A stretch of DNA of 43,162 bases from a virus, in the IMG/VR virus record IMGVR_UViG_3300031673_000134, positions 1 to 43,162 of that record, one strand, 5' to 3'. Under the pieces are notes generated by a model. That model did not search any database and was not told the origin of the DNA. It saw only the letters and a list, made by a program, of their open reading frames with translations. Positions within the stretch are counted from its first letter, which is position 1; every line of letters begins with the position of its first letter. The translations under genes and the position numbers were made by a program. Shown piece by piece: positions 10,418-34,436 of the stretch.

Positions 10418-11125
10418 TTATCCCCAAATAATTGGACTCGTGGTGTACTTCGCTTTGTTCTCCAGCCTCTCTTCAATCTCGATGATTGTCGCTTGACCTT
10501 CGGCACGAAGCTCCGAAGCATCCGTAGAAAGAGTTCCACCCGGAACAGGAATACTGTCCCCAAACTTACCTCTTCTCCTTCCCAAGATAAGCTTACAAAG
10601 AGCAGTTACATATTCCTTAAAGTCGGATATGTACCCCACCTTGTGAGTATCAATGTTATCAAGAGTAAGGTCCGTTGCTATCAAATAGAAAACATCATAC
10701 GGACCAGAGGCACAATCAACCCACAACACTCTGTCTACTTCATCGAAAAACCAATCAGGATCAGTTCCTCTCACCCGCTGATATGATTCATAAAATGACT
10801 TCAACAGATACCAATCAGATATTGGAAACCTGGGAAAGACCATTCTGTACATCAATTCAAAGATAGACATCTGAGCGTATGTGCGAGTGTCCTCAGGAAA
10901 CAAAGTCTCTACAAGAAGAACTCCTCTATCACCTTCCAGAAGCGGTATCCTGACACTTCCTGCCTGGTTCTTGCTTATCCTAGGGTCCGGAAGGGTCAAA
11001 AACTGGTTGAACTTCTCCAGAGTCCTGTCCGTTGCCGTATCAATGTCATTATTGACAAGTTCTATGCCAACGTCGGGGCCACCTAAGATTGTCCTAACGT
11101 AAGACCTCAGATCGTCCTTGTTCAC
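10418..11125 (-). CDS. Neck / head-completion protein candidate (gp13/gp14 position)
   Basis: This 235-aa protein starts with GTG at 11125 and AGAGGT upstream, overlapping the end of the preceding gene by 32 bases. Its N-terminus (LRSYVRTILGGPDVGIELVN, then DIDTATDRTLEKFNQFLTLP) is the helical opening typical of T4-like neck or adaptor proteins that bind the portal. The middle has SDWYLLKSFYESYQRVRGTD and the C-terminal part has KEYVTALCKLILGRRRGKFG. The role is inferred from order: after capsid, before tail completion. Confidence 0.5.
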   Translation of the reverse strand: MNKDDLRSYVRTILGGPDVGIELVNNDIDTATDRTLEKFNQFLTLPDPRISKNQAGSVRIPLLEGDRGVLLVETLFPEDTRTYAQMSIFELMYRMVFPRFPISDWYLLKSFYESYQRVRGTDPDWFFDEVDRVLWVDCASGPYDVFYLIATDLTLDNIDTHKVGYISDFKEYVTALCKLILGRRRGKFGDSIPVPGGTLSTDASELRAEGQATIIEIEERLENKAKYTTSPIIWG

Positions 11126-11990
11126 TATGGAACCTCTTCTTATGGATATTCAGTCCCCTCTCACTGGAAAAGACCTTTCCACAACCTACAACCTCACAGG
11201 AAAAGATGTTTGCCGATTGACTCAGTACCTGAGCCTCCTGAGGAGTTGGCGTAGTCATAGGCACAGGTTTAACAATCTCCTCTGAAGGTTGAGAGACCCC
11301 TATAGCCGGAAGCACATCAGCCTCCTCAGAGGTATCCACAAGCGGTTCACCAACATCCCTGATGCGGTCAGGGTCAGCAACATCCCTTGCCGCTGTTTCC
11401 TCCATGGCCTTTTTCTCAACCTCCAATTGCTTCAGCCTCCGTTCTTCCTTGCCCCTCTTGACAAAGTCTGGAATCTTCTGTTGGGCTACCGTAGTAACAA
11501 GTTCCTCCTCCACAGGTGGTTTAATAGCCTGTTTGTCTGCTTCCACGGCACTCATAGATTTCTTAGAAGTCAGTGAAAGCTCCTCCTCCTCTCTCTCCTT
11601 CAACACATCTTCCCTCTTGTGAAACTCCTGCAGATGGGCATTGAAAGACTCTATGCTCGCCGTGCGGAACATACCTTTACATCTCTTGCATGAGTATATC
11701 CCCTTCGACAATTTGTAGTCCACCGTTTCCTCATCTTTCATTGATCCAAACTTCGTCTGAAGGAAACTAATAGAATTTGTTGGAGGTTGGGTGTCAATCT
11801 TCTGGAGCTTTTCAATTCGCTCTTTGGTCTTAGCATCCAAGACTACGTCAACCACTGATAGCTGACGGATACCTATAAACCGAGAAAACCAATTCTTGAA
11901 AGTCCCCTCACCAGGCTTGAACTGAACCGAGCCTCCACGACCATCCGGTAGAATTACCGGATAGGGATTTCTGTTTACATACTTTTTCAT
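11094..11990 (-). CDS. Protein with two C2H2 zinc fingers, post-capsid gene
   Basis: A 298-aa protein preceded by AGGAGG and by a late promoter. Residues 1-50 hold a compact domain with YPVILPDGRGGSVQFKPGEG, like small virion proteins that follow the capsid gene. Two C2H2 fingers follow: C101, C104, H119, H124, and C265, C270, H283, H288, the second with eukaryote-like spacing. Between them lies a long charged helical linker (EEEELSLTSKKS, RRLKQLEVEKKAMEET). Such fingers bind DNA or protein. In a structural operon this could be an internal head protein or connector factor. Function not known. Confidence 0.6.
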   Translation of the reverse strand: MKKYVNRNPYPVILPDGRGGSVQFKPGEGTFKNWFSRFIGIRQLSVVDVVLDAKTKERIEKLQKIDTQPPTNSISFLQTKFGSMKDEETVDYKLSKGIYSCKRCKGMFRTASIESFNAHLQEFHKREDVLKEREEEELSLTSKKSMSAVEADKQAIKPPVEEELVTTVAQQKIPDFVKRGKEERRLKQLEVEKKAMEETAARDVADPDRIRDVGEPLVDTSEEADVLPAIGVSQPSEEIVKPVPMTTPTPQEAQVLSQSANIFSCEVVGCGKVFSSERGLNIHKKRFHSEQGRSEVLR

Positions 11991-12028
11991 TTTCGTCCTG
12001 CCTCCTTATTACATTTCCATCTCATATA

Positions 12029-12044
12029 ATTATACAAAAAAGAC
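12029..12044 (-). promoter_or_regulatory. Late promoter candidate upstream of gene 11990
   Basis: Minus-strand TTTTTTGTATAATTATAT with TATAAT at 12034-12029, 39 bases before the start codon of gene 11990. Matches the six-copy consensus. It stands back to back with a plus-strand GTATAATTA at 12059-12067. Confidence 0.6.
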
Positions 12045-12058
12045 TTGGATTTTCCAAA

Positions 12059-12067
12059 GTATAATTA
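12059..12067 (+). promoter_or_regulatory. Divergent plus-strand -10 element GTATAATTA
   Basis: The plus strand reads AAAGTATAATTACAC here, carrying the same GTATAATTW core as the phage late promoters but pointing rightward. Transcription from it would start near 12072 and read straight through the hairpin series at 12078-12171. It is the only rightward promoter-like match I noticed that faces a plausible product. Confidence 0.4.
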
Positions 12068-12200
12068 CACTAATGTCTGCATCGTGATTATAATGCATCT
12101 TTGAATATATTGAGTCTGGGGCTACAGACTCTTGGACTTGTCCATAGAAGCTCCTGACTTTAGTCATGGAGAGTAGTCACACGAATTTATGCCTTCCTCT
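12068..12200 (+). ncRNA. Orphan omega-RNA-like element (IS200/IS605 right-end type), copy 1
   Basis: A non-coding gap folds into a row of hairpins on the plus strand: TGCAT/ATGCA (12078-12097), a perfect 7-bp GAGTCTG/CAGACTC stem (12112-12131), GGAC/GTCC, and CTCC-TGACT/AGTCA-GGAG (12151-12171). The last hairpin is framed by GAAGC on the left and GAGTAGTCAC on the right. That frame is typical of IS200/IS605 right ends, the source of TnpB guide (omega) RNA, where the guide follows the final TCAC. Here the would-be guide begins ACGAATTTATGCCTTC at 12181. No tnpA or tnpB is adjacent. It could be a transposon scar, a non-autonomous element or a working guide RNA. Confidence 0.45.
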
Positions 12201-12214
12201 CCAGTTACATAATC

Positions 12215-12242
12215 AAAAAAGGGGCCAGACAGTCCGACCCCC
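12215..12242 (-). terminator. Intrinsic terminator after major capsid gene
   Basis: On the minus strand a GC-rich hairpin (GGGGTC...GGCCCC with inner GAC/GTC) is followed by six T. It lies 37 bases after the major capsid stop. Confidence 0.75.
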
Positions 12243-12278
12243 AATGCTCGGTGTTTCTATGTCCCCATGCTTACTACC

Positions 12279-13715
12279 TTAGAATGCTGCACCACTCTGG
12301 TCCAATGTACCCATCGAGTACATTCTGCTGTTCACAACTTTCTGGCCGGAACGCATTCCCATACCCTTTCTGGCAATCATGTCATCCAAGGTGATGGTAT
12401 CCGTGGTGAAAAGTTGCAGGTAAGGGGCATGTATGTAACCTGTGTCCAAGAACGAACTCCCCTTATGGCCCATCAACCATTCACTTGAATAGAAAGTTGG
12501 GTCCTTGAAGATGGTAAACTCACCCAAGGTCCCAATTTTCTTGACACCGGCAAGGCCGGAGCTTCCAACACCAATGGACTGGAACTTACTCAAGGTTTCA
12601 ATGACGTTACAGACTTCAACGGAGGCCACAATCCAGTTACCTTGTGCCCTCTGCGTTCCGCTGAAAATGGCATTTGACTGTTGAATCAAAGCGTCATACA
12701 ACGACTCCTTATGCCATATCCACGGTACATTGAGAGGAGGCGTTCGATCCCACGTAATAGCGGCAGACGAGGCAACCTGCGCAAGGTGCCGAATTATCTT
12801 GTAATTCAGTTCCTTGGCAATCTCGTTTGCCATATACGCGACCAACTCCACCTCGGCATTTATCCCGTGGTATGCCTGGAAGTCCTGCTGAGCTTCCAAA
12901 GACCAACGGGCACGAAGTTTCTGTGTCCTTGCCACAACCGGAGCCGAAGTCAACTGAAGGTCAATTTCAGGTGTACCCTCATTGGCCTCACTGTTGTACT
13001 CGTATGTCGCCGTGACAGCATTTCCATTGACAATGACAACCGCGAACGTCACATCATAAACTCCGGTGTTATAGGCAATAGTGTTCACCCCTTCTCCAAT
13101 GTCACCAACAAGATTACCATTTCCATCATCTGACACACGCTGAGTCCCATCAGTGATGATAACAGTTCCCGGACGAATCGGAGTGTAGGCAAAAGCAGCC
13201 GCACCGCCACCAAACTGGGCAGTAGCTCCATCACCAGCACCTAACTGTTCCTGTTGGATAACCTCGTCAGTGTAATGGACATTCCGGCTGGGACCAGTAC
13301 GAACATCGTACATCTTGGTCCCTCTGACAATGCTCCCTTTGGAGGACCCATAGACCACATCGAAGTAGAAAACAAGTCCTGTTGGAGCATCCAGTGGTGA
13401 AACTGTCACGAGTTCCGATGCAATGAGATTGGCCATCAACGCACGAAGGATGGGAAAAACAAACTTCTCAAAAGAACCCACCTGAAGGGTCCTTGTTGAC
13501 TCGTTGAGTCTATTCAGCCAGTTGAATGTATTCTCATACAACTGGGAGAGAACAGCACGTTCATGGTCGTTATCCACACCTTCCAAGAAGTCGATGTTAC
13601 CATGGCGTTCAAAACCACGAATTTTACGACCATCCATATTCGACCAAGCTTCAGCAAGAAGCATTCCTTTTTCTTTCTGAGCTTCCAGCAATTGTGTACC
13701 TTCATTTTCAGGCAT
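12279..13715 (-). CDS. Major capsid protein (gp23-like)
   Basis: This 478-aa protein lies between the prohead protease and a strong terminator and has its own late promoter. The N-terminal arm (about the first 30 residues) is charged, as in T4 gp23, where it is removed by the prohead protease. Conserved T4-type segments include FVFPILRALMANLIASELVT with SPLDAPTGLVFYFDVVYG, LRARWSLEAQQDFQAYHGIN, ELVAYMANEIAKELNYKIIR and, near the end, WLMGHKGSSFLDTGYIHAPY. It forms the icosahedral shell. Assignment is firm. The residues cut by the protease are not defined. Confidence 0.9.
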   Translation of the reverse strand: MPENEGTQLLEAQKEKGMLLAEAWSNMDGRKIRGFERHGNIDFLEGVDNDHERAVLSQLYENTFNWLNRLNESTRTLQVGSFEKFVFPILRALMANLIASELVTVSPLDAPTGLVFYFDVVYGSSKGSIVRGTKMYDVRTGPSRNVHYTDEVIQQEQLGAGDGATAQFGGGAAAFAYTPIRPGTVIITDGTQRVSDDGNGNLVGDIGEGVNTIAYNTGVYDVTFAVVIVNGNAVTATYEYNSEANEGTPEIDLQLTSAPVVARTQKLRARWSLEAQQDFQAYHGINAEVELVAYMANEIAKELNYKIIRHLAQVASSAAITWDRTPPLNVPWIWHKESLYDALIQQSNAIFSGTQRAQGNWIVASVEVCNVIETLSKFQSIGVGSSGLAGVKKIGTLGEFTIFKDPTFYSSEWLMGHKGSSFLDTGYIHAPYLQLFTTDTITLDDMIARKGMGMRSGQKVVNSRMYSMGTLDQSGAAF

Positions 13716-31276: not shown

Positions 31277-31471
31277 TCATCCCAACAGTAGTTTCTTTCC
31301 ACCGACACTCTCTCTGAGAACAGCCTTCTTCACGACTTTCGTAGCCGTACAATCCTCATGTTTGCATACGAGAGTGACCTCATCACCTTTCTCCTCAAGT
31401 TTCTGCCAATCATGCTCATGGCTCTTGGCACCCGAACTCGGAAGCTTTTCAGTCAAGATTTTCTTACCCAC
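31277..31471 (-). CDS. Small protein with possible zinc site, overlapping portal
   Basis: A 64-aa protein with a GTG start and GGAGGTG upstream, overlapping the end of the portal by 8 bases. SHEHDWQKLEEKGDEVTLVC with KHEDC gives His and Cys residues (H18, H20, C36, C41) that could bind zinc. A mostly basic C-terminus follows. Function unknown. Confidence 0.5.
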   Translation of the reverse strand: MGKKILTEKLPSSGAKSHEHDWQKLEEKGDEVTLVCKHEDCTATKVVKKAVLRESVGGKKLLLG

Positions 31472-34436
31472 TGTTCTTCACCTCCTCTTTTGCTTCAGCA
31501 TTTATCTTTCTTATGGTTTCAGTCATAAGGTTCTTCGTTCGTATCACCTCTAATTCTTTCTCGTCACTATTCCAATATGCAACCTGTTTACTCTCAACAA
31601 GAGTTCCTGTACCACTGAGAGCATGAAGAGGAAGCGATTCTGGAGATACTCTAAGCCTATGGCTTGAAAAACAGTTACTGCCAACTTTGTGGCTAAACAT
31701 GTGTTTACCTGAAATGAAAAATTCCTGAAGTACAATCCTATCTTCTCTATCCAACTTCTCTGCGATGACGTTGTCTATCTCCTTACATCTCGACTCCGTG
31801 ATATGCACAGAACTCTGTATGAAATCCCTAACCTTATATCCTTTGTCATATTCCTTATCCTCGTTCTCAGAAAGCTCACTCATCATACCCATGTCTTCAA
31901 GACGTGCAAGAATCTTTGATTCCTCAACCCTGACCACACCCTTAATGATTCCTGAAATCTTTCCCTTCCCATCCCTGCGAAAGAGATGGGGAGGAATCAT
32001 GCTGCGCTTAAGAAGATACTCATGCCACTCCTGGCCTTCCATACCGAGCATTTTTCCAATATCAGTAAGTGTAGCAAGTGTATCCATCCTTATTTTATCA
32101 ACCTCCAGACGCTGCTTCTCGTCAACTGCACTCACCGGATTCATATGTATCGTAAACTGAGCCTTCTCTGAGAAGGGGTCAATGCCAATCCAACACAGGT
32201 TAAGCATGATGAACGTAGCATAGCCCTCCATAATTGCAGTTTGTAACCTCTTCTCTTTCCTAGCAAAGTTCACGTCCTGAAAACTCAAAGGAATGTCCGC
32301 AGCAAAAGACCCTGGAGTATCGGAAAAACCCAGATAATCCGGAGGGACACCAAGAGTACCAAAGAACCGCTTTCTAAGATAATCTATATCAAGAACCTGA
32401 TTTATCTGCTGAGACCCGGTAAGCCTGTCGATGTCAACTGCATCACTGTCTACTATGAAATCCTCATCTATACCAATCGGGTCCATCTCCGTCCTGACTT
32501 TGCCCGTTGTTTTGTCAATCTCATACTTCTTGCGAAGCTCCTGACGGATAAGACGCATGGCTTTGGCCCTATCATCAGGAGTTAGACCCGTTAAATTCTT
32601 CATCTTGAACACAAACCTGTCCGGAGCACGTTTCAACCGGTAAAGAACAAGATTATCCTCACAAAGCCTAAGTTTTCTAAACATCCTTCTAGCAGGAAGA
32701 AGAAACGAAGTACCATAATTGGTCATCCTGTTCCTGCCAAGAAGTTTGAAGTGAATAAACGACCACGGTGCATCTGTTGGTTTCTCCGTCTTAAGCCTGC
32801 CCAACTTCGACAGAAGATGTTTGTGTGCAAGCTGCTCTATCGGAGATACGACAAACCCTGTAAGCCTGTTGTCGTTGTCCTCAATCCTGGACACTGAATA
32901 TACCGGAGCAGCCATAAAATCAACAATAGGTCCAGGAGTCCCATCCTCCCTAACGGATTGCACATTACCCTCGAAGCAATCTCCATACTTCGCAACCTCT
33001 CTTGCCTGGGCAAAAACTCTCGCTTCGGCGTCAACATCATCCATCCACTGGTTTGCCAAGTCCTCAATCTCTTTGTTGTCCGCCTCAACCCAAATGGTTT
33101 TTCCAGTAGTTACATCCCTTTGACAATTATGGACAAAGACACCAGCAGATAAAGCAAAGTTATGGTGTGTTTCTACATCAAGACAATAGACATCTTCTTT
33201 CTTATCAAGATACTTTACTGAGACCACTTTGTGGTTCTGCTTTGCCTTTGATATTGCAGCACCAACGGCTTCCCTATATCCAGGACGATTCCAGACCTCT
33301 GATATAGCCTGGCTATGCTTAATCCGCTTTTCTGGCGTCCACCTATCTTTAAGCATCGAACGAGCACCACGACGGCATATCCCACCTTCAACAAATTTTT
33401 TCCGATATTCTGGATTTTCCCATCGTTTCTTAGCAACCACAGACATCTTCTCTCGGAATTTCCTCTTGCGCCCAAGAGACCAATTTCTCTTTACCACATT
33501 CGCCCCCTTCGCAGCCAAAACATTTCTCTTTCTTGCTTCAGGATGATTCCGAAAATAATCTAACCTGCTCTGACGCATTCTCTCCACGACAGCAGGGTCA
33601 CACATAGGATTATTATCAGTAAGAAGCTTGCTCAACAACTTCCTATGCTTCTTGCTAATAACCTGACCCTTCGCATGAAGACTTGCATGTTCTTCTTTCA
33701 TCATCCACATAAGGTTGTCTGGACAGTTATTTCGTTTGTTGTAGTCTCGATGATGTACAATGGCACGTCTTTCAAGACCTGGCCGTGACACAAACTGACG
33801 GTGGGTATAATGCCATTTGCTTTCATCCGGCTGATAAAGGAGTTCATAACCAGGAATACTACCATTGTACTTTCGGTAAAGAGGCATTAAACTATCTTCA
33901 AGTTTCAAATCCCTTGCTTGACGGTAACTCCCATTTCTCATCAAAAATCTATGGTCCGGAGTACACTTGATTCTCTCACCATTATCGAGAACAATCTCAA
34001 CGAGACGAGCATCTTTTCGCGTCTTCCGAGCAGTAGCTTTCGCCGGAACAATCTTTTTTCTTTTTATGTCATAAGCATAGACCCAAAAAGAACCCCTATC
34101 TACAAGGTCTTTGATTGCTACTTCCTCTCCTTCAAGCAAAGAAACTTGTGTATCACCTGCAAAACATGCATCCTCAGAGTACAAATCCAATACTTGTACT
34201 ACGATGTCGTCGCTGTCCATGTCGTCAAATTCTTTGTACATCTCATATCTATCAACATGAAGATGCATTGAGTCGTAAAAAAACATGGAAAGAACATCAT
34301 CCCAACTGCTGGACATAAGCTCCCGCAAACCTTCAGGTGTTATGCGTTCTGGAGCTTTGCCCTTCGTCGAAAAACCAAACATCAACTTTATCCCAGTCCA
34401 GGGCTGTGGCTTTATAATCTGAAGTTCTCTCGCCAT
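31464..34436 (-). CDS. Portal protein (gp20-like) interrupted by an intein
   Basis: The 990-aa precursor consists of a T4-type portal of 643 residues split by an intein (C91-N437). Extein residues 1-90 end at LYSEDA, and C438 continues CQRDVTTGKTIWVEADNKEI. Portal features are AREVAKYGDCFE, IHFKLLGRNRMTNYGTSFLL, ARRMFRKLRLCEDNLVLYRL, KAPDRFVFKM and, late, TLGVPPDYLGFSDTP and LCWIGIDPFSEKAQFTIHMN. The dodecameric portal forms the DNA entry channel and binds the terminase. Its upstream neighbour is the terminase gene, 11 bases away. AAAGGA precedes the ATG. After splicing, the joined sequence reads YSEDA-CQRDV. Confidence 0.85.
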   Translation of the reverse strand: MARELQIIKPQPWTGIKLMFGFSTKGKAPERITPEGLRELMSSSWDDVLSMFFYDSMHLHVDRYEMYKEFDDMDSDDIVVQVLDLYSEDACFAGDTQVSLLEGEEVAIKDLVDRGSFWVYAYDIKRKKIVPAKATARKTRKDARLVEIVLDNGERIKCTPDHRFLMRNGSYRQARDLKLEDSLMPLYRKYNGSIPGYELLYQPDESKWHYTHRQFVSRPGLERRAIVHHRDYNKRNNCPDNLMWMMKEEHASLHAKGQVISKKHRKLLSKLLTDNNPMCDPAVVERMRQSRLDYFRNHPEARKRNVLAAKGANVVKRNWSLGRKRKFREKMSVVAKKRWENPEYRKKFVEGGICRRGARSMLKDRWTPEKRIKHSQAISEVWNRPGYREAVGAAISKAKQNHKVVSVKYLDKKEDVYCLDVETHHNFALSAGVFVHNCQRDVTTGKTIWVEADNKEIEDLANQWMDDVDAEARVFAQAREVAKYGDCFEGNVQSVREDGTPGPIVDFMAAPVYSVSRIEDNDNRLTGFVVSPIEQLAHKHLLSKLGRLKTEKPTDAPWSFIHFKLLGRNRMTNYGTSFLLPARRMFRKLRLCEDNLVLYRLKRAPDRFVFKMKNLTGLTPDDRAKAMRLIRQELRKKYEIDKTTGKVRTEMDPIGIDEDFIVDSDAVDIDRLTGSQQINQVLDIDYLRKRFFGTLGVPPDYLGFSDTPGSFAADIPLSFQDVNFARKEKRLQTAIMEGYATFIMLNLCWIGIDPFSEKAQFTIHMNPVSAVDEKQRLEVDKIRMDTLATLTDIGKMLGMEGQEWHEYLLKRSMIPPHLFRRDGKGKISGIIKGVVRVEESKILARLEDMGMMSELSENEDKEYDKGYKVRDFIQSSVHITESRCKEIDNVIAEKLDREDRIVLQEFFISGKHMFSHKVGSNCFSSHRLRVSPESLPLHALSGTGTLVESKQVAYWNSDEKELEVIRTKNLMTETIRKINAEAKEEVKNSG
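33126..34166 (-). mobile_element. Intein with HNH homing endonuclease in portal protein
   Basis: 347 residues from C91 to N437 of the precursor. It opens with CFAGDTQVSLLEGEEVAIKD (splicing block A). Block B is RIKCTPDHRFLM, with the catalytic His in the TPDH form. The C-terminus is VYCLDVETHHNFALSAGVFV followed by HN, then Cys as the +1 residue. All nucleophiles needed for splicing are present. The centre carries an HNH endonuclease (RRAIVHHRDYNKRNNCPDNL, EEHASLH). Three short repeats follow that resemble NUMOD-type DNA-binding units (FRNHPEARKR, RWENPEYRKKF, VWNRPGYREAV). It is expected to spread by homing into intein-less portal genes. Confidence 0.9.

Follow-up and report, generated by a model that had tools for sequence, protein, structure and literature searches.

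The DNA considered here (the window) is the whole of the 43,162-nt viral record IMGVR_UViG_3300031673_000134 of IMG/VR. Nearly all of its large open reading frames (ORFs) are carried on the minus strand, and marks of a T4-like virus are evident in a gp20-type (T4-type) portal, a gp23-like major head protein and a tail sheath. Known phages share <60% identity with the capsid protein of the record, and the ten nearest viral contigs by capsid share 53–71%. Since one of these relatives lies on a 135-kb contig, the record is probably an incomplete piece of a larger T4-like genome, and absences reported below are valid for the record only. The initial annotation had placed the element in a lean phage genome; the portal, the capsid and the 135-kb relative instead point to a probable 43-kb T4-type fragment. 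The T4-type portal gene (31464–34436, minus strand) contains an intein with an HNH endonuclease domain.

The feature of interest lies between the capsid gene and the gene downstream of it, gene 11990 (Table 1). Read along the minus strand, this gap consists of the capsid terminator (12242–12220), the element and, ahead of gene 11990, a GTATAATT site and the ribosome-binding region of that gene. The location of the gap is as first annotated, but its description as non-coding is not, as codons from the tail of a tnpB gene lie inside it. Gene 11990 itself gives weak C2H2 zinc-finger matches that fall under the Pfam cut-off, and relatives carry a similar gene downstream of their capsid gene.

Table 1. 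Features of the capsid-gene gap and its borders, with positions counted from the first base of the window.
Feature	Position	Strand	Basis or remark
Gene 11990, downstream of the capsid gene	11094–11990	minus	
Intergenic gap	11991–12278		288 nt
Probable phage promoter of gene 11990, GTATAATT	12028–12035	minus	motif enrichment; sites upstream of genes
Single plus-strand GTATAATT copy, possible promoter	12059–12066	plus	just 5′ of the remnant; inferred only
tnpB 3′-end remnant, RuvC-III tail LHRDYNASLNILSLGLQTLGLVHRSS then TGA	12077–12157	plus	match to L040 TnpB; overlaps the omega-RNA
TnpB omega-RNA scaffold/IS200-IS605 right end, complete	12106–12180	plus	covariance model R1
Stem 1, GAGTCT/AGACTC (12112–12117/12126–12131), loop GGGGCTAC	12112–12131	plus	family covariation
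Stem 2, TGGA/TCCA (12133–12136/12141–12144)	12133–12144	plus	family helix 2
Stem 3, right-end hairpin CTCCTGAC/GTCA-T-GGAG (12151–12158/12163–12171), one bulged T	12151–12171	plus	family helix 3; R1 alignment
Right-end terminus AGTAGTCAC	12172–12180	plus	hardly varies within the family; included in the recruiting pattern
Would-be guide, i.e., insertion flank (ACGAATTTATGCCTTC)	12181–12196	plus	position only
Terminator-like hairpin of the capsid gene	12220–12242	minus	just past the would-be guide; similar hairpin at the same place in relatives
Capsid gene	12279–13715	minus	PHROG 138

The window contains seven copies of the GTATAATT motif where 1.1 would be expected, a count reached by 0 of 100 shuffles. 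Six of the sites are on the minus strand (9784, 12028, 13786, 19421, 25013 and 30635) and lie 27–80 nt upstream of ORF starts, with a consensus of approximately [AT]TT[CT]GTATAATT that precedes minus-strand genes, including the capsid gene. On the strength of this enrichment and placement, the motif is probably a phage promoter, and specifically the late promoter of this phage. The lone plus-strand copy, which is the sole candidate for a promoter on that strand, has a 5′ flank (CCAAA) that is unlike those of the minus-strand sites. Both GTATAATT sites of the gap are linked by an inverted repeat at 12025–12067 (AATTATAC...GTATAATT) that has an inner ACTTGGA/TCCAAAGT hairpin and is possibly a two-way promoter.

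The element was initially described as an IS200/IS605 right end, or TnpB omega-RNA, unaccompanied by its nuclease. A recruiting pattern (GAAGC..TTTAG..AGTAGTCAC) retrieved 64 stretches of viral DNA, about ten of which look like chance matches; in many of the 64, a tnpB reading frame ends at the motif. The covariance model R1 was trained on 19 viral loci other than the window, most of them linked to tnpB and one (L031) with a tnpB fragment only. When run over the window, the model aligned along its full length (positions 1–74 of 74) to the plus-strand scaffold at 81 bits (E = 2.6e-19), and all other matches in the window were ≤13.6 bits. In the underlying alignment, 94% of cells are paired compared to 67% after shuffling, two-sided changes number 78 versus 20, and slid controls reach 33–55% pairing. 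The ends of stem 3 are set by the recruiting pattern, while stems 1 and 2 are independent of it.

The closest kin of the scaffold are right ends that belong to full tnpB elements, one on viral contig L040 (81% DNA identity) and others in environmental bacterial MAGs. In addition, a protein search recovered the six closest TnpB relatives of L040 in genomes (69–78% identity), and the RNA recurs at the 3′ end of every one of their genes (70–87 bits). Rfam searches of both strands, at gathering and relaxed thresholds, returned no relevant family, and DNA similarity searches of phages and plasmids gave short fragments only. The R1 match and the recurrence of the RNA behind all six tnpB genes bear out the original identification: judged by sequence homology, the scaffold is a true TnpB omega-RNA or IS200/IS605 right end without its nuclease rather than a group of hairpins that arose by chance. 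It agrees with TnpB omega-RNAs in sequence and structure and overlaps a tnpB 3′ end in the right frame and position; no cognate TnpB was found within the 43-kb record.

Four consecutive plus-strand stems had been counted in the element. The stem sequences quoted and the closing GAAGC...AGTAGTCAC are indeed present at the coordinates first given, and three of the stems belong to the covarying family, but the 5′-most (TGCAT...ATGCA, ~12078–12097) falls within tnpB codons and is absent in L040. Stem 1 shows two-sided changes across the family at six of six pairs, all of which are kept in the window, and 98% of family cells are paired in stem 2. All three family stems form in the plus-strand fold of the window, but the folding energy is not above chance (z = −0.52 over 251 nt and −1.34 over 121 nt). 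The significance of the omega-RNA therefore comes from homology and covariation, and not from folding energy.

On the minus strand, the gap folds better than expected by chance (z = −3.6). This score prompted another reading of the locus: the minus strand, where the large genes lie, would yield a structured RNA or a leader for gene 11990, and the plus-strand likeness to omega-RNA would be a by-product. The capsid terminator and the inverted repeat of the promoter region contribute to this energy, however, and the element is placed after that terminator and before the promoter of the next gene. Rfam also gives no family on either strand, the element is missing from ten relatives, and plus-strand homology already accounts for the stems. 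This reading was rejected on the basis of placement, relatives and homology, and is regarded as extremely improbable.

Overlapping the 5′ part of the scaffold are the last 26 codons of tnpB, including RuvC-III tail codons (LHRDYNASLNILSLGLQTLGL...). Residues 355–382 of the L040 TnpB match 12071–12154 with 71% identity (E = 4.2e-7), and the window frame from 12077 reads LHRDYNASLNILSLGLQTLGLVHRSS plus a stop where the L040 protein ends in LHRDYNASLNILRLGLQSLGF. The earlier statement that no tnpA or tnpB coding sequence is present thus holds for tnpA and for an intact tnpB, but not for this tail. Over the 21 codons compared with L040 tnpB, differences at codon positions 1, 2 and 3 number two, zero and seven, respectively, and second-position changes are likewise zero against L072, L070 and L071. 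As the changes relative to L040 are mostly synonymous, the pattern indicates that most of the divergence dates from a time when tnpB was still a gene, and that the loss of tnpB is recent. Homology to close relatives breaks off abruptly at ~12076 (12075–12078).

Searches of the 43-kb record, including those with the TNB domain and the L040 TnpB, revealed no TnpA or TnpB domain. Left ends of this IS605 family consist of a hairpin followed by GATGAA and are located upstream of tnpB. A model built from ten such ends (R2) found no left-end hairpin between 11000 and 13000, where its best scores were ≤8.1 bits. Most intact relatives and two-ended, tnpB-less copies score 35–52 bits, several of these being members of the R2 training set; some intact relatives reach only 18–26 bits, and the model could thus overlook a left end that has diverged. 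The stretch 11991–12080 appeared plausible by eye as a homologous left end when set beside L017, L040 and L070, and was discarded when its scores proved to be at shuffle level.

In sequence, its three stems, the terminal AGTAGTCAC and the overlap with the tnpB 3′ end, the element resembles those of L040 and the bacterial MAG clade; in contrast to these, the window keeps only the last 26 nuclease codons and has no left end. A similar layout is known from a Halanaerobium PATE-like sequence, which comprises the last 58 nt of tnpB plus an entire right end (PMC7290912), and two-ended, tnpB-less copies occur in related viral contigs (L013, L015, L034 and L051). By analogy, the element could be a miniature two-ended PATE that is mobile with TnpA supplied in trans. 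It has the short tnpB tail and full right end of a PATE and is phage-borne, but no left-end hairpin was detected in 11000–13000, and 11991–12080 resembles known left ends no more than shuffled sequence does. This makes a PATE very unlikely.

None of the ten contigs with a related capsid gene has the omega-RNA or a TnpB. A similar next gene is kept in seven of them (L132–L135 and L003–L005), with gaps of 82–198 nt versus 288 nt here; without the 105-nt remnant, the present gap would measure 183 nt. In L136–L138, the next gene is different or not resolved. The ten relatives without the element, the gap lengths, and the lack of a left end, TnpA and TnpB together suggest a lineage-specific insertion that has since been truncated.

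The bases that follow the right-end terminus occupy the position of a guide. Searches for such a target, as initially proposed, yielded no second site: within the window, 12181–12196 matches nowhere else at ≤3 mismatches, and its first 17 nt have no match in viral contigs. Judging from the left ends of kin, an empty insertion site would carry a TTTAC-like motif immediately before ACGAATTTATGCC. A link to TldR had also been suggested. TldR is a nuclease-dead TnpB of phages that has a guide RNA (PMC13418256), and the present element is similarly a TnpB-derived guide RNA on a phage. The TNB-domain and L040-TnpB searches, however, revealed no adjacent RuvC-dead TnpB homologue, no target was seen, and the remnant codons are those of an ordinary TnpB tail. 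With neither TldR nor TnpB found in the record, the proposed link is unsupported.

Copies of the omega-RNA that lack tnpB recur in viral contigs (L013, L015, L017, L022, L029, L034, L038, L051, L052, L054, L061 and L064). Several immediately follow genes of phage structural type, with which they mostly share a strand. Stem 1 has six of six pairs in all 13 tnpB-less copies compared (the window included), although their sequences differ, and a mean of 5.8 pairs in 18 tnpB-linked copies. Its integrity in the tnpB-less copies could mean that they arose recently or that the RNA is under selection. Three contigs (those of L022, L017 and L038/L052) carry two copies each and no TnpB that matches the L040 query, although they may be fragments.

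The tnpB-less right ends of L015 (6651), L017 (4237) and L022 share TGAATTTCA ≤1 nt from the TCAC terminus. Twelve letters are common to L015 and L017, and the window has only GAATTT. A degenerate-pattern search for a shared guide recovered the three known copies and two unrelated matches only; the sharing represents a common guide, a common insertion context or chance. In a separate group (L019, L027, L037 and L058), the same tnpB-poor right end is bordered by the same flank, and the flank was not found without the right end. These could be one virus sampled four times.

Alternatively, the RNA of the window could be functional, being transcribed from the plus strand and guiding, in trans, a TnpB encoded by the host or in the part of the phage genome outside the record. 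Its guide, the phage flank (ACGAATTTATGCC...), would direct cutting of insertion-free sibling phages, which would then copy the element by repair. A complete scaffold, a candidate plus-strand promoter, and about a dozen other tnpB-less viral copies with stem 1 intact are consistent with this, as are a G-C to T-A exchange in stem 1 that distinguishes the two L017 copies and the lack of a TnpB matching the L040 query in several contigs with tnpB-less copies. On the other hand, the record has no TnpB, no target was found in the window or viral contigs, and the flank of the plus-strand promoter differs from those of the minus-strand sites. The recent age of the tnpB stub would also leave the stems intact regardless. 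Function in trans is thus considered unlikely. Unlikely too, and slightly more so, is the general form of the idea, i.e., that tnpB-less omega-RNAs are recurring, trans-acting phage guides whose scaffold is selected, whose nuclease comes from the host or a co-infecting element, and whose effect is to defend the insertion against siblings that lack it or to drive it into them.

The best fit to the missing left end, the coding signature of the tnpB stub and the ten related phages without the element is the relic that the initial annotation had listed as one option. Accordingly worded, the element is quite likely a recent, 5′-truncated IS605 remnant that consists of the last 26 tnpB codons and the whole omega-RNA right end, and it is probably non-functional. 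A complete IS200/IS605-family tnpB element would have inserted at the capsid-gene gap of a T4-like phage, and a later deletion would have removed all but the last codons of tnpB along with the left end; the absence of these parts and the abrupt end of homology are observed, and the order of events is inferred. Lacking a left end and TnpA, the remnant would not be expected to move, and lacking TnpB, its RNA, if transcribed, would be inert unless the host or another part of the phage genome provided a related TnpB. The relic most likely sits in a neutral, tolerated spot between the capsid terminator and the next promoter, where it could persist. Four points count against a relic: all three stems are intact, as in other orphan copies, and selection would give the same result; a plus-strand GTATAATT lies just upstream; TnpB could be encoded elsewhere in the phage, as the record is probably a fragment; and a diverged left end may have escaped the R2 model.

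The feature can be taken as a genuine guide-RNA end from which the nuclease appears to have been lost recently. Its study also brought up roughly a dozen tnpB-less copies of the guide RNA, some of them on contigs that carry the RNA twice and lack a nuclease to match. If such orphan copies were expressed and used by TnpBs of the host, phages would be making use of borrowed RNA-guided nucleases.
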